Under the pieces are notes generated by a model. It did not search any database and was not told where the DNA came from. It worked only from the letters and a program-made list of their open reading frames with translations. A DNA stretch of 64,000 nt. Source: Porphyrobacter sp. AAP60. Its GTDB lineage: Bacteria > Pseudomonadota > Alphaproteobacteria > Sphingomonadales > Sphingomonadaceae. The stretch lies in assembly GCF_001296025.1 (NCBI RefSeq), contig NZ_LJHV01000002.1, positions 682,001 to 746,000 of the forward strand, in the 5' to 3' direction. Below are positions 45,407-50,863 of this stretch, in pieces (the stretch's first letter is position 1; every line of letters begins with the position of its first letter). The position numbers and the translations under genes are program-made.

Positions 45407-47137
45407 TCAGCTCTCCTTGTCAGCCAGACGGGCAATCTGCCGGTCGAGGTGCTGAATCATTTCCTTGCGGGTAGTTTCAGGGATTTCCCTGTCTCTGGCG
45501 ATCTCGGCGCGCGCCTGTTCCAGCCCTCGGCGGGCTGAGGCAGCGCGCGCGTCATCGAACCCTCGCATCGCCAGCGCCTGAATGCGCGGCTGGCAGATCA
45601 TAATCGTCTTCTTGCCATCCTTGCCATTGATGACCTGGGCCTGACCGGGAAACGCTGACGTGCAATCCTTGAGCACCATGACTTCTGGCGCCGCAGCACG
45701 GGCAGCTTCGGCATGCTCGCGTGCCTTGTCCGCCTGCATCATGGCAAAGGCCAGCGTTTGCCTCATTTCAGCCCGCACCCGCTCGGCTTCGGCCAGTCCT
45801 TCGCGCAGGGCGGCGGTCATTTCGGCATGTTCCTGCTCGCTCATCCATTCGGACCGGGCAAGATCGACAGTGATGGGTTCGCCCGCTGCGCTGGTGCGCC
45901 GGACGATCCTCACGGTGCGCTCCTTACCATCCGCGCTGCGGGTCGTGCGTTCGCTGACGATGGTCTTGCCATCCCCTTCGCTGTCCCCTTCCCCGTCCGG
46001 AAAAACGAAGGCGAGCGGTGCTTCGGGCGGTGCCGGGGGTTGCGGCGCATCGGGCGCTTCGGGCGCATGCGGCGGTGCAGGCGGCGTGGGCGCGGCTGGC
46101 GGCTCGGGCGCTTCGGCGGGCACGGCTTGCGCAGGGTCGCTCGCGGCATAGCTGAACGAAGCGGTGAGCGGCAGGGTCAGCAGGCCGGCGCCCAGCAAGG
46201 CACCTCCCGCAAGGCGGCGACGCAGGGAAATACGGGACATCGACAGGCTCCTCAGACGGTGAATGATCGATTTTTCGCCAAGCACCGGACAGGCCATCGG
46301 CGCAGTCAGGGCGGCATTGCCCGCAGCAACGGGTGCGGCGGCATAGCGGGCAATCAGCGCAGCATAGGCGGCACGATCCTGCGCATCGCGGTGCGCCATG
46401 ACCCGGGCATCGCAGGCGGCTTCCTGATCGCGGCGCAGCGCCAGCCAGCCATAGCGGCCGAGCGGATTGAACCAGTGCAGCGCGAACAGCGGCTGCACCA
46501 GCACATTGACCAGCAGATCGCCGCCCCGGTGGTGCGCCAGTTCATGCGCCAGCGCCAGATCGCGCGCCTGCCGGTCATGCAGCGCCATGAAGCCGGGCGG
46601 GAGCGCGATGACCGGATCAAGCACACCCATCGCCAGCGGCGCAGGCGTGCCCGGTGTCTCGACCAGCCGCACGGTTGCAAAACCCTCGCGCACCCGCCCG
46701 ACCTCGCGCCCTTCGGCCAGCAGCGCATCGCGCAGTTCGAAATAGGCGGCAAAACGGCGGCACAGGAACACCCCCGCCCCCGCCAGCCAGACCAGCAACA
46801 GCGATTCGGCCAACGGAAGACCGGCCAGCGTCTCCAGCAGATCATAACCGGCGGCAGGGGCCACTTCTGCCGGGACGATCGCAACATCGGCCATCGCCTG
46901 CGATGTCGCTGCAGTATCGACCGAAACCGGGATGGCGGCAGGTTCAGGCAAAGGCGCACGCGGTGCCATCCATGCAGGCAAGGTGATCGGCGGCAGGAAC
47001 AGCCGGGCCAAGGGCAGCAGCCACAAGGCATAGGCAACCTGCGGGCCGAACCACCGCGCAACGGGGCGGCGCAGCAGCAACACCGCCGCGATCAGCACGC
47101 CGGTCCATGCCAGCATGTGCAGCAGCACGGCGCTCAT
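45407..47137 (-). CDS. BlaR1/MecR1-like M56 membrane metallopeptidase sensor
   Basis: A 576-residue BlaR1-type protein. Membrane spans lie at about residues 5-22, 33-50, 105-127 and, after the protease, 305-330. The zinc motif is HELAHH (198-203). The C-terminal part does not contain the penicillin-binding domain of true BlaR1; it has a long Pro/Ala linker (about 340-385), a small beta region, a charged coiled coil (EWMSEQEHAEMTAALREGLA onward) and a cysteine pair (DCTSAF, MICQPR). It overlaps the BlaI-type gene by 4 bp. The signal it senses is unknown and probably not a beta-lactam. Confidence 0.88.
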   Translation of the reverse strand: MSAVLLHMLAWTGVLIAAVLLLRRPVARWFGPQVAYALWLLPLARLFLPPITLPAWMAPRAPLPEPAAIPVSVDTAATSQAMADVAIVPAEVAPAAGYDLLETLAGLPLAESLLLVWLAGAGVFLCRRFAAYFELRDALLAEGREVGRVREGFATVRLVETPGTPAPLAMGVLDPVIALPPGFMALHDRQARDLALAHELAHHRGGDLLVNVLVQPLFALHWFNPLGRYGWLALRRDQEAACDARVMAHRDAQDRAAYAALIARYAAAPVAAGNAALTAPMACPVLGEKSIIHRLRSLSMSRISLRRRLAGGALLGAGLLTLPLTASFSYAASDPAQAVPAEAPEPPAAPTPPAPPHAPEAPDAPQPPAPPEAPLAFVFPDGEGDSEGDGKTIVSERTTRSADGKERTVRIVRRTSAAGEPITVDLARSEWMSEQEHAEMTAALREGLAEAERVRAEMRQTLAFAMMQADKAREHAEAARAAAPEVMVLKDCTSAFPGQAQVINGKDGKKTIMICQPRIQALAMRGFDDARAASARRGLEQARAEIARDREIPETTRKEMIQHLDRQIARLADKES

Positions 47138-47523
47138 GGCCGCAGCTCCTTCAGCAGCGTCTCAATGGCATCGAGATCATCTGCGCTCAGCGCCTCGGTC
47201 TCGGCCAGGTGTGCCACCAGCGAGGCTGCATTGCCGCCGAACAGGCGATCGACCAACCGGCGCGATTCGCCGCCGACATAGGCATCGCGGGCGATCAGTG
47301 GGGTGTAGAGAAACCGCCGCCCGTCAGGCTCGGCAGCCAGCGCGCCTTTCTGCACAAGCCGCGAAAGCAGGGTTTTGACGGTGGCAAGGCTCCATCCGCG
47401 CGGGGTGCAAACCGTCTCGCATACTTCGGCGGCGGTCTGGCGCGGACGATCCCACAGCGCCTCCATCACGGCGTGTTCGGCATCGGTAATGCGGTCGTGG
47501 GCGGGTTCTTCAGGGGTGTTCAT
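47134..47523 (-). CDS. BlaI/MecI/CopY-family repressor
   Basis: A 129-residue winged-helix repressor. It shows ITDAEHAVMEALWDRPRQTA, CTPRGWSLATVKTLLSRLVQKG (recognition helix, about residues 42-63) and a C-terminal dimerisation helix with SLVAHLAETEALSADDL, where BlaR1-type proteases usually cleave relatives. A GGGAGG precedes the ATG. Two operator-like dyads in its promoter region indicate self-repression. With the M56 gene it forms a classic repressor/protease pair. Confidence 0.92.
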   Translation of the reverse strand: MNTPEEPAHDRITDAEHAVMEALWDRPRQTAAEVCETVCTPRGWSLATVKTLLSRLVQKGALAAEPDGRRFLYTPLIARDAYVGGESRRLVDRLFGGNAASLVAHLAETEALSADDLDAIETLLKELRP

Positions 47524-47546
47524 GGCAAAGCCTCCCTCAAGGCGAT

Positions 47547-47577
47547 TACACCTGTAGTCACAACGACTACGTTTGTA
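47547..47577 (-). promoter_or_regulatory. Twin BlaI-type operators upstream of the repressor
   Basis: Two boxes of the TACA-NN-TGTA type are present: TACACCTGTA at 47547-47556 (perfect) and TACGTTTGTA at 47568-47577 (one mismatch), 21 bp or two helical turns apart. They also form a larger dyad (GTAGTC..GACTAC). A possible minus-strand promoter, TTTACA with a 17-nt spacer to TACAGG, overlaps both. The boxes could control both the repressor operon and the divergent gene at 47648. Confidence 0.75.
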
Positions 47578-47647
47578 AACCTTGCCGCTGCATGAACGGG
47601 TGGCGCACCGGCTTGCGCTTCGGCAAACGGACGATACACCCGGACGA

Positions 47648-49306
47648 ATGACAATCCGCGCCGCCTTGCCCTTCGCCGCCCCACCACTCGCAGCAATGGC
47701 CCTGCTTCTCGCCAACCCCGCCCTGGCGCAGGAGGCGTTTCTGCCGCTGACCACGCCGGTCGAGCTTTCGGCAGACGCAGGCGATGTGGAAGTGGGTGAT
47801 CTGATCTTTCGCGGCGGGGTGGAAATCGCGCCTGACAAGGTCGGGATCGGCGGCATCTCCGGCCTCGAATGGCACGATGGGCAGCTTTACGCGGTGGCCG
47901 ATGACGGGCGCTGGCTGATCATGACGCCCGAGGATGTGGCGGGCCGCCTTGTCGATATTTCATCGGTCACAATCGGCGATTTGCGCGATGAAAAGGGCGG
48001 CAAGCTTGCCAGCAAGACCCGCGGTGATGCCGAAGCGATTACCCGCCTGCCGACAGGCGAATGGCTGGTCGCCTTCGAACAGGAACACCGCATCTGGCAA
48101 TATGGCGAACTGGGCGGGCCTGCTGTCAACGCAGCGTCACGGCCCGAAGCCGCCGCGGCAGTTGCGCTGACAGCCGATGCCCAATCCAATGCCGGGCTTG
48201 AAACAATGGCGGCCAGCCCGAACACCTTTCTGGCCTGCGGCGAATGGGTCGATCCTGCCCGGCCCAATTGCGTGCACGCATCGATGGGCGGCATTACCCG
48301 TTTCCACCTGCCCGCGCCCGAAGGCATTGCCGATGTCGGCGGCGTGCCGACCGACGCAGCCTGCAAGGCGGATGATACATGCTACGTCCTGTTCCGCAGC
48401 TATACGCCCGGTTATGGCAACCGCGCCGCGATTGTCGAGCTGGCCCCCGATGCCGATCCCAAAACGCTGGCAGTACTCGCCCCGCCGCTCGCTCTCGACA
48501 ATTTCGAAGGGCTGGCCGTGCGTGAGGCCGAGGGGAAAACCTTCCTCTACCTCGCCTCTGACGACAATTTCCGCAATTGCGAGACCAAGCCGGGCGCCGG
48601 ATGCCAGCGCACCTTGGTGATGAAGTTCGAAGTGAAGGGCGCGCCCGTTGTCGCGCCGCCGCCCACGCCCGAAGGCTTTGCCACCACGCCCACTGCCCGG
48701 CCCGGTATCCGACCATTTCCTGAAGCGGCCAGCGTCAACGTGGGAATCGAAACAAGCCTCGGTCCGATCACCATCGCGCTGGAAACCGAACGCGCGCCCG
48801 TAACGGCAGGCAATTTCCTGCGCTATGTCGAAGAAGGGCGACTGGATGGCACCAATTTCTACCGCGCGGTGAGAATGCCCGGCGGCCCCCAGCCCGGCGG
48901 GCTGCTGCAGGGCGGCACACGCGGCGATCCCGCGCGGGTGCGGCCGGGCATCGCGCATGAACCGACCTCTCAAACCGGCCTCAGCCACACCCACGGCGCG
49001 CTGTCGATGGCGATGAATGAGCCCGGCACCGCCACCGGCGATTTCTTCATCATGATCGAGAATCAGGCCGGCTTCAACGCCGATCCCGCCGCCGCCGATC
49101 CCGCCTGGCGCGCAGGCTTTGCGGTGTTCGGCTATGTGGTGGAGGGGATGAACGTGGTCGCCGCGATCCACGCAGCCAAGCGCGATCCGGACGCGGGCGA
49201 AGGCGTGATGAAGGGCGAAATGCTGAGCCAGCCGGTCAAAATTATTTCGGCGCGGCGGCTTTCGGCGCCTTCTCCTTTGCCAGCCCCTTCGCCGCAATCG
49301 CCATAA
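47648..49306 (+). CDS. Secreted fusion of esterase-like phytase domain and cyclophilin
   Basis: A 552-residue protein with a signal peptide (about 1-28). The first part (about 30-340) resembles the esterase-like activity of phytase family: GGISGLEWHDGQLYAVADDG, GDAEAITRLPTGEWLVAFEQ, LDNFEGLAVREAEGKTFLYL and SDDNFRN, a beta-propeller with acidic metal sites. After a Pro-rich linker (about 335-360) comes a cyclophilin-type prolyl isomerase (about 363-545) with LDGTNFYRAVRMPGG, GGLLQGGTRGD and GDFFIMIENQAGF. It is divergent from the BlaI-type gene and may share its operators. Both domains would be periplasmic. Confidence 0.85.
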   Translation: MTIRAALPFAAPPLAAMALLLANPALAQEAFLPLTTPVELSADAGDVEVGDLIFRGGVEIAPDKVGIGGISGLEWHDGQLYAVADDGRWLIMTPEDVAGRLVDISSVTIGDLRDEKGGKLASKTRGDAEAITRLPTGEWLVAFEQEHRIWQYGELGGPAVNAASRPEAAAAVALTADAQSNAGLETMAASPNTFLACGEWVDPARPNCVHASMGGITRFHLPAPEGIADVGGVPTDAACKADDTCYVLFRSYTPGYGNRAAIVELAPDADPKTLAVLAPPLALDNFEGLAVREAEGKTFLYLASDDNFRNCETKPGAGCQRTLVMKFEVKGAPVVAPPPTPEGFATTPTARPGIRPFPEAASVNVGIETSLGPITIALETERAPVTAGNFLRYVEEGRLDGTNFYRAVRMPGGPQPGGLLQGGTRGDPARVRPGIAHEPTSQTGLSHTHGALSMAMNEPGTATGDFFIMIENQAGFNADPAAADPAWRAGFAVFGYVVEGMNVVAAIHAAKRDPDAGEGVMKGEMLSQPVKIISARRLSAPSPLPAPSPQSP

Positions 49307-50294
49307 GCGCCGCTTCGTCAAACGCGGGCCGCCCCACCGGCGCGCTGGCTATGCGCGGCCGGCCCGCTTCAAGCGCGGGGAGCCAGGTGCCGACTTCGGG
49401 CCCGATACTGACCTGCGGCAGCGAGGCAAGGAAGCGCGCCTGCGTCTCCCACTCGGCAACCGATCGCCCGGCCATGCGCGCTGCCTCGTCCAGCGGAACG
49501 GGCTGACGCAGCGCGCGGTTGATCAGCGCGTCGCCAAAGAACGTCCAGTCATTCTCCGCCACGCAGCCGAAAGATGTGCGCGTGCTGGCCGCAGCGGTCA
49601 GGATCGCGCTGTCAGGGCTGGCGAGTGCGGGCACGAACACGCCCGAATAGCAGGCCGAGAGGATCAGCACCCGCCGCTTGATCCCCGCTTCCTCAAGCGC
49701 TGCCTTCAGCTTCGCGGGCGAAAGGATGCCATAGCCACTGTCGCCGTAATGATAGGCGAGGCCCAGATCCATGCCGTGGCTGGTGGTGTAGAGCACCAGC
49801 GCATCCTCGCCTGCGTCCATCAGGCCGCCGACATGGCTCAGCGCGAGTAGCAGCGCGGTGATCGACCCATGCGGCGCATCATCGCGGGTGCCATCCGGCC
49901 CGGCCAGCACCAGCGTGCGTTCTTGCGCCCCATAACGCGCGCCCAGCACCCGCCCCGCCTCGCGCGCCTCACGCGCAAACACCGGATCGCTATCGAGAGC
50001 TATAGTTATGACGTAGGCATCGGCCGTGCCAGGCCGCTGGGGTGCAAGCGCGGCAAGTGCGGTATCAAGCCTGCGCTGCTGTTCGCGGATTTGCCCCGCC
50101 GATACGCCCCGCTGCAATTCGGGGCTGAGTTCGTAGGACTTGCGCCGCTCGGCCCGGCTCTGCCCGCCACCGAGATCGGGGAACGGTGCGACATGCGGCG
50201 GGGGCTGGTTGGGATCGGGGGCAGAGGACTGCGACAACGCGGGCACAGCGAACAATGCCGCCAACAGCCCAGCGATGATCCGGCCCCTATTCAT
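49242..50294 (-). CDS. Secreted caspase-fold cysteine peptidase, C13 type
   Basis: A 350-residue protein with a signal peptide (about 1-22) and a clan CD peptidase domain. The catalytic dyad is His173 in LYTTSHGMDLG and Cys215 in VLILSACYSGVF, the spacing and context of C13/legumain-like bacterial enzymes. The Pro-rich N-terminal part and the helical, Ala-rich C-terminus may be pro-segments. Its last 65 bp overlap the 3' end of the fusion gene on the other strand. Substrate unknown. Confidence 0.85.
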   Translation of the reverse strand: MNRGRIIAGLLAALFAVPALSQSSAPDPNQPPPHVAPFPDLGGGQSRAERRKSYELSPELQRGVSAGQIREQQRRLDTALAALAPQRPGTADAYVITIALDSDPVFAREAREAGRVLGARYGAQERTLVLAGPDGTRDDAPHGSITALLLALSHVGGLMDAGEDALVLYTTSHGMDLGLAYHYGDSGYGILSPAKLKAALEEAGIKRRVLILSACYSGVFVPALASPDSAILTAAASTRTSFGCVAENDWTFFGDALINRALRQPVPLDEAARMAGRSVAEWETQARFLASLPQVSIGPEVGTWLPALEAGRPRIASAPVGRPAFDEAALMAIAAKGLAKEKAPKAAAPK

Positions 50295-50371
50295 CGGGGA
50301 GGAAGGTGGCGCGGCAACGCCTCCAGCGTCAAGTCATCTTTTTCCCGCCCACTCCCTCTGCATCTTGGCGA

Positions 50372-50863
50372 TCAGACGTACATACCGCTGTAGGCCTGCC
50401 CCGGCGCGACAAGTTCGGCAACCTTGAACCGTTTGGGACGGTTCCTAACGATTTCCCACTGCGGAATGCCGGTTCCTGCGGGATAGTCTGCATCACCGAA
50501 CGGGGCAGCATGCGGCACAACCTTGCAGAGGCGATCCGCGCCTTGATAGGTAAAGGTTTCCCGGCAAATCTTCTCTTTGAGCCGGCGCAGATCGACACCA
50601 TCGCTTGCCAGCCGCTGTTCGGCATTGGGCCCTTTGGCAAAGGCGGCCTTGTGGCCTCTTTCGATCCCGCCACTCATCTGAGTGTAACCCCTGAATTCGA
50701 AATCATCGGGCATCAGAATGTCGATCAAAAAGATGAGCTTGAAACCATCTTTCAGGCGACCGGCACGAAATCCGAGTCGACGTTCCAGTTCGTTCGCCGA
50801 TTGCATGCGCACATATTTAGCCTGCGTAATGTAACCCGCGCTGGTTTCGATACTTCCGATCAT
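50372..50863 (-). CDS. Orphan protein of unknown function
   Basis: A 163-residue cytoplasmic protein with no signal or membrane segment. It is rich in charged residues (ELERRLGFRAGRLKDGFKLI) and includes PDDFEFRGYTQMSGGIERGH and a C-terminal WEIVRNRPKRFKVAEL. GGGGGAAG lies upstream of the ATG. The base composition is clearly less GC-rich than in the neighbouring genes. I recognise no family. The overlapping plus-strand frame (50306-50917) lacks a ribosome-binding site and looks like a shadow. Possible recent acquisition. Confidence 0.6.
   Translation of the reverse strand: MIGSIETSAGYITQAKYVRMQSANELERRLGFRAGRLKDGFKLIFLIDILMPDDFEFRGYTQMSGGIERGHKAAFAKGPNAEQRLASDGVDLRRLKEKICRETFTYQGADRLCKVVPHAAPFGDADYPAGTGIPQWEIVRNRPKRFKVAELVAPGQAYSGMYV

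Follow-up and report, generated by a model that had tools for sequence, protein, structure and literature searches.

The gene described here is a single ORF on the forward strand (47648–49306, with the ATG at 47648 and the stop codon at 49304–49306) that encodes a protein of 552 amino acids, in which a β-propeller is followed by a cyclophilin-type prolyl isomerase. All positions are those of the window, that is the whole stretch of 64,000 nucleotides that was analysed, and the features of the locus are collected in Table 1. Both domains had been called in the initial annotation, and the domain search proposed there placed both above the Pfam cut-offs, with PF13449 at residues 66–308 (E 2.5e-29, 103.5 bits compared with a cut-off of 27.6) and PF00160 at residues 366–533 (E 1.1e-24, 87.9 bits compared with a cut-off of 21.7). 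No WD40 family was found in the protein by Pfam at E ≤ 0.001. The protein had also been described as led by one signal peptide, with which our by-eye reading of the cleavage site agrees, and as having a proline linker between propeller and isomerase, which was borne out by a mean proline fraction of 0.18 over 59 homologues. The conservation of this linker was 0.36 compared with 0.67 and 0.77, and its length, taken from F327 to T369, ranged from 25 to 44 residues in 59 sequences. Elsewhere in the genome there were one more PF13449 match and three more PF00160 matches.

Table 1. Genes, domains and control elements of the propeller–cyclophilin locus (positions in the window)
Feature	Position	Strand	Basis
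BlaR1-like M56 membrane protein	45407..47137	-	PF05569, E 2.9e-39
BlaI-family repressor	47134..47523	-	PF03965, E 3.2e-33; sole PF03965 match in the genome
First BlaI-type operator (putative), TACACCTGTA	47547..47556	+	sole exact TACANNTGTA in the window, 0.04 expected
Second BlaI-type operator (putative), TACGTTTGTA	47568..47577	+	21 bp from the first
Leader common to fused and unfused genes, reaching the ATG	47612..47650	+	32-locus alignment
Propeller–cyclophilin fusion gene, stop included	47648..49306	+	single ORF; PF13449 and PF00160 above cut-off
Sec-type signal peptide, residues 1–27, site ALA|Q	47648..47728	+	by-eye reading; N-termini of fused and unfused relatives compared
β-Propeller domain, residues ~49–330	47792..48637	+	PF13449 match 66–308, predicted model, YjiK fold
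Proline-rich linker, residues ~331–360	48638..48727	+	least conserved inner stretch
Cyclophilin-type prolyl isomerase domain, residues ~361–538	48728..49261	+	PF00160 366–533, 1j2a fold, invariant R406/Q421/F466
Peptidase C13 (legumain-type) protein, convergent	49242..50294	-	PF01650; frequent neighbour in relatives; overlaps the 3′ end of the fusion gene

Upstream lies a divergent BlaI/M56 pair, and the 124-bp control region that it had been said to share with the fusion gene corresponds exactly to the gap at 47524–47647. Pfam analysis of the M56 protein gave PF05569 alone at E ≤ 0.001 and no penicillin-binding domain, and its score with the NCBIfam model blaR1_generic was 65.5 bits, the cut-off being 400. 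The C-terminal part of this protein is long and rich in Pro, Glu and Ala. Two sites of the BlaI-type pattern TAC[A/G]NNTGTA, 21 bp apart, occupy 47547–47577. When the tandem pattern was searched with 0–2 mismatches, one place was found in the 3.25-Mb genome, this same site with an exact fit, and the reversed control pattern at up to 2 mismatches gave 5 and 6 matches in the genome. A scan of 47400–50400 for consensus promoters found none. The convergent Peptidase C13 protein also gave a weak caspase-like match in NCBIfam.

An AlphaFold2 model of the whole fusion protein, built with 59 fused sequences, had a mean pLDDT of 87.9 and a pTM of 0.71. Because the fold search with the whole model returned mostly cyclophilins, the propeller (residues 27–329, 35 sequences) was modelled separately, giving a pLDDT of 91.2 and a pTM of 0.92; the lower pTM of the fusion model would weakly favour a loose tether between the two parts. 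The cyclophilin part of the model matched 1j2a with Z 22.7 (160 residues, 1.6 Å). Arg406, Gln421 and Phe466 (R406, Q421 and F466) are invariant in 59 of 59 fusions, and were paired by eye, with the aid of an alignment for R406 and Q421, with human cyclophilin Arg55, Gln63 and Phe113. A catalytic role of Arg55 and Gln63 (hCyp18 numbering) is described in the part of PMC4898713 available to us. The propeller model matched Escherichia coli YjiK (3qqz) with Z 19.2 (217 residues, 3.1 Å, 16% identity), followed by the glutaminyl cyclases 3mbr (Z 18.7, 203 residues aligned, 2.9 Å), 3nol (Z 18.0) and 2iwa (Z 17.9), with the next structure at 14.7. The identity of the cyclase structures to the propeller was 8–9%. 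Since no part of the genome, the fusion gene included, matched PF05096 at E ≤ 0.001, we regard the likeness to glutaminyl cyclases as one of fold only and rejected this identity for the propeller. A search of solved structures with the propeller profile gave no matches, and the propeller sequence gave weak matches to DARPins within residues 13–83 only, which were taken as chance.

One doubt raised at the outset was that a sequencing frameshift had joined two genes. With the fusion protein as the query and a threshold of E 1e-8, the fusion was found, by match coordinates, in 70 of 114 genomes of the genus (Erythrobacter and kin), the classes being counted by reading the match rows. Sixty-six of the 70 had one full-length match, one (G344) had a match split over two contigs, and three (G311, G347 and G338) had two matches in one frame. 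The remaining genomes comprised 17 with the cyclophilin and no propeller (14 bare and three with a different protein, X, described below), five with a propeller match only and 22 with nothing; G346, one of the five, is probably also a fusion, as its contig ends inside the gene. The DNA of 63 of the 70 fused genomes was fetched as a non-redundant set, to which the other seven do not belong, and both domains lay in one frame in 63 of 63. Because the fusion is carried by 70 of the 114 genomes, with a shared frame in these 63 DNAs, a frameshift or an assembly artefact is excluded, and the joining of propeller and cyclophilin is a genuine two-domain ORF. The second doubt, that the fusion might be a common annotated family, also fell away: the only NCBIfam matches of the protein were to two single-domain cyclophilin models, both far under their cut-offs, and there is no NCBIfam model of the fusion.

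The architecture count that had been suggested gave, besides the 70 of 114 genomes within the genus, none outside it among the family and class matches listed. In the family sample 3 of 298 genomes gave a full-length match (among the matches listed, with the best few candidates scored in each genome), and in the class sample 2 of 385 did (again with the best few candidates scored in each); all of these belong to the genus. In a genome scan 17 loci came up, and both domains were present in 11; Erythrobacter (fulvus, donghaensis, dokdonensis, tepidarius and colymbi) and Porphyrobacter were among the genomes concerned. None of the 12 PF13449 matches in frames of at least 480 amino acids, among those listed, had a cyclophilin by the cyclophilin profile; in 20 class-sample loci with frames of at least 480 amino acids the two profiles found both domains neither in one frame nor anywhere in the locus; and 17 cyclophilin loci of other genera listed from the family sample (11 with frames of at least 480 amino acids and six shorter) never had both domains in the locus. 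As a control, the two-profile reading detected both domains in the window's own gene. Weaker cases could escape these searches, which rest on the matches listed and on the best few candidates of each genome. The fusion was thus seen only in one genus.

The order ZnMP, g171, M56–BlaI, (propeller–)cyclophilin, C13 and SdhA-D-C recurs, with gaps, in both fused and unfused genomes. In 14 genus-mates a bare cyclophilin occupies the equivalent locus. The distance between the end of the BlaI match and the start of the cyclophilin match is 244–370 bp there, and about 1 kb in the three genomes with X. An alignment of 32 loci (18 with and 14 without the fusion) showed conserved DNA between the operators and the ATG, except in L128; three further bare-cyclophilin loci lay outside this leader alignment. 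Since the leader and the cyclophilin are found in fused and unfused loci, the propeller sits between two old parts, the leader with its signal peptide and the cyclophilin. The 63 fused propellers form one clade (support 0.971) and hence have one origin of fusion; its sister group (support 0.979) comprises 17 propellers that stand alone, 16 of them in the genus and the other in a different genus. The joining of propeller and cyclophilin is old. The deep branches of a cyclophilin plus BlaI tree were poorly resolved, and a seven-gene tree was used instead, which was built from neighbouring genes rather than the core genome and in which several deep branches are weak. In this tree the headless L130 stands beside L113 with a propeller (support 0.996), L117 beside L087 and L096 (support 1.0), and L119, which lacks X, beside the X-bearing L116 (support 1.0). 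Such headless and headed sisters fit repeated in-frame loss and exchange of alleles between species alike, as exchange could mimic repeated loss because the fused genomes compared belong to one genus.

In three genomes of the genus (L116, L123 and L124) this cyclophilin is joined in frame, at the same locus, to protein X instead, and in a fourth (G392, L102:2607–4940, plus strand) X, propeller and cyclophilin form a single frame of 795 codons, 778 residues from the start. X was present in seven of the 114 genus genomes in all, four times in these fusions and three times as its own frame. In two genomes of another genus (L010 and L030) X has a gene of its own, flanked by BlaI and the cyclophilin. 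The window's own genome has a separate X gene on another contig (G000:C3:52154–52924, L169), and neither of the two stand-alone X loci that were read had a BlaI match or an operator nearby (8.5 kb read for L169). L086 (3152–4954, plus strand) retains nothing of X but its first and last pieces, ahead of the propeller, and about 1.8 kb of other sequence separates this fossil-like gene from BlaI. In its C-terminal half X is TPR-like: designed TPR proteins were matched with E 5.1e-10 by a profile built from eight X sequences, and single X sequences gave weak TPR matches only (best E 0.00077). Taken together, the cyclophilin is the constant part of the gene and its N-terminal head is optional and exchangeable, being a propeller, the TPR-like X, both or none.

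These findings bear on a suggestion of the initial annotation, that the isomerase might act on its own propeller as a private folding aid. The lack of any stand-alone propeller inside the clade of 63 fused ones would suit such a role. However, the same cyclophilin occurs alone or with X in 17 of the 114 genomes, and 17 related propeller loci stand alone with no cyclophilin. A private helper role is very improbable because the cyclophilin and the propeller, or close relatives of them, each occur unaccompanied by the other, and with a constant cyclophilin and a head that changes in frame, an isomerase serving its own propeller is disfavoured.

dN was lower than dS in 14 of the 14 closest fused-gene pairs for both the propeller, with dN/dS of about 0.05–0.32, and the cyclophilin; judged by these codon comparisons, both domains are under purifying selection. 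Each of the acidic propeller residues D127, E129, E144, E185, E287 and D305 is conserved in at least 58 of the 59 fusions, and all are invariant over 18 fused and 17 stand-alone propellers. One explanation on which these data bear is that the fusion is neutral or nearly so, a neighbouring gene having run into the cyclophilin and left a head that is tolerated and not used. This would agree with the fact that, of the 87 genus genomes with the cyclophilin, 17 lack the propeller (14 headless and three with X), and with the absence or decay of the whole gene in 14 other genomes that retain BlaI. Such a history is nevertheless distinctly unlikely in view of the dN/dS values of the propeller, the agreement of its conserved residues with those of the stand-alone form and its retention in 70 of the 114 genomes.

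The conserved acidic residues would also fit an enzyme or a metal site. The protein might accordingly be read as a chain that carries two independent enzymes: its propeller would be a PF13449-type hydrolase or another enzyme, and the fusion would merely provide a shared promoter and signal peptide. It is in line with this that the acidic residues are conserved alike in fused and stand-alone propellers, that relatives of the propeller exist without a cyclophilin both within the genus and beyond, and that the linker is variable. A phytase or esterase activity is, however, not established for this propeller, whose nearest solved folds include YjiK beside the glutaminyl cyclases, and in sister species the same place is filled by TPR-like repeats, which generally bind. 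We regard two unconnected enzymes as a serious, though rather unlikely, alternative.

Of the 61 fused loci with a BlaI match, all had the tandem operator pair with its 21-bp spacing except L057, which has a BlaI remnant, and with the relaxed pattern TACNNNNGTA all 40 unfused loci had a pair, spaced at 21 bp in 38 of them and at 22 bp in two; duplicate loci and loci without a BlaI match had been dropped beforehand. BlaI was present in 84 of 87 genomes with the cyclophilin compared with 15 of 27 without it (G346 among the 27; Fisher p 9e-7, uncorrected for kinship and incomplete genomes). Fourteen genus genomes keep BlaI while the cyclophilin gene is missing (13 genomes) or fragmented (L193), and both operators are present in 12 of the 14; L207, from G346, was set aside from this group, as its contig ends inside the fusion gene. 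In L195, L196, L198, L201, L204 and L206 the cyclophilin is cleanly absent between BlaI and C13, with BlaI, M56 and the tandem operators kept. In L193 (5256–7216) cyclophilin fragments flank about 1.8 kb of other DNA, making this a decayed copy, and the intervening DNA includes an ORF that by eye resembles an Rrf2-type regulator. Since BlaI and the operators are found also at loci that lack the cyclophilin gene, regulation of the fusion by BlaI is only plausible, and the operators may serve mainly BlaI/M56 itself. Moreover, two fused loci (L038 and L083) have no BlaI/M56 and a third (L057) has the BlaI remnant, and no operator was found within 600 bp of the start codons in any of the three. 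The case for BlaI control as an obligatory link is thereby weakened, and such control is not obligatory.

The explanation that we favour, at roughly even odds (about 0.5), is that of a tethered exported foldase, with an active periplasmic isomerase, a propeller that recognizes clients or a ligand and expression linked to BlaI/M56. The C-terminal cyclophilin domain would be an active periplasmic prolyl isomerase, and the propeller would be a recognition head holding envelope clients or a ligand; the flexible linker of 25–44 residues would let the head bring the isomerase to them. In the weakest step of this scheme, the M56 protein would relieve BlaI repression, and expression of the fusion would probably go up. 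Propellers and TPR-like repeats are usually binding domains, the latter rather than enzymatic ones, and a recognition head is favoured because the head alternates between these two. It speaks against this explanation that the gene is dispensable, being absent or decayed in 14 BlaI-bearing genomes of the genus.

A wider reading, which we offer tentatively as a possibility, is that of a secreted cyclophilin with swapped heads, in which a fixed leader and signal peptide and a constant isomerase would be combined with interchangeable in-frame recognition heads that set the specificity for envelope clients, an exported bacterial parallel to the eukaryotic TPR- and WD40-cyclophilins. The reasons for accessory domains on prolyl isomerases have been argued mostly from eukaryotes. 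The genus provides a natural series, at one locus, of the same cyclophilin in headless form and with a propeller, a TPR-like head or the two together, which allows a direct test of what a recognition head contributes to a foldase. If the reading is true, PF13449, a propeller family that is widespread but has no firmly assigned function, would be linked to envelope protein folding. No bacterial exported PF13449–cyclophilin with swapped heads was found in the open-access titles and abstract openings searched, which cover part of the literature.

The locus can be compared with several known systems. In the staphylococcal bla divergon, blaR1–blaI stand beside a divergent blaZ. The present locus is like it in having BlaI and an M56 sensor divergent from an exported protein, with two operator dyads, and differs in that Pfam gives no penicillin-binding sensor domain on the M56 protein and no β-lactamase family in the fusion protein. 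The stand-alone PF13449 proteins annotated as 'esterase-like activity of phytase' are, among the matches listed, about 28–46% identical with the window propeller, and have no cyclophilin in frame in the 12 plus 18 long-frame genes listed, whereas the fusion protein has one.

Among cyclophilins, the AquaCyps of marine Alphaproteobacteria are described, in the part of PMC4898713 available, as having a NIC domain made from extensions, a 40–50-residue insertion between strands 4 and 5, and a disulfide. Both they and the fusion protein are enlarged alphaproteobacterial cyclophilins. Membership of this group was rejected, as far as that part of the paper defines it: in place of the cysteine pair, all six cysteines of the fusion protein lie before residue 320 with none in the cyclophilin domain, and in place of a C-terminal extension of 50–60 residues, there is a poorly conserved tail of approximately 14 residues. 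Cyp40, named in the same portion of the paper, is a TPR-bearing cyclophilin, its TPR being C-terminal, and has no propeller; the X–cyclophilin sisters likewise join TPR-like repeats to a cyclophilin. In anaCyp40, according to the portion of PMC8967839 available, an N-terminal helical domain is similar to PsbQ, so that it shares with the fusion protein the combination of a cyclophilin with an accessory domain, in its case without a propeller in what is described.

The closest parallel in layout is PPWD1, the human spliceosomal WD40-cyclophilin. According to the part of PMC6315705 available, its propeller is N-terminal and its isomerase C-terminal, the same order as in the fusion protein, and structure 5YZG holds PPWD1 (646 amino acids). 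PPWD1 is nuclear with a seven-bladed WD40 propeller there, whereas the fusion protein is bacterial, with a PF13449 propeller and, by eye, a signal peptide. In a Foldseek search with the whole fusion model, chain 5yzg_2 stood at rank 3; both the content of 5YZG given in that part of the paper and the aligned chain range of 102–646 fit PPWD1. The whole-chain superpositions were poor (rmsd 42 Å for 5yzg_2 and 25 Å for 7a5p_z) and give no common domain arrangement, so that on the predicted model the likeness to PPWD1 is one of layout only. As far as these sources extend, then, accessory domains on cyclophilins are well known, and the layout of a propeller followed by a cyclophilin is already known from eukaryotic PPWD1.
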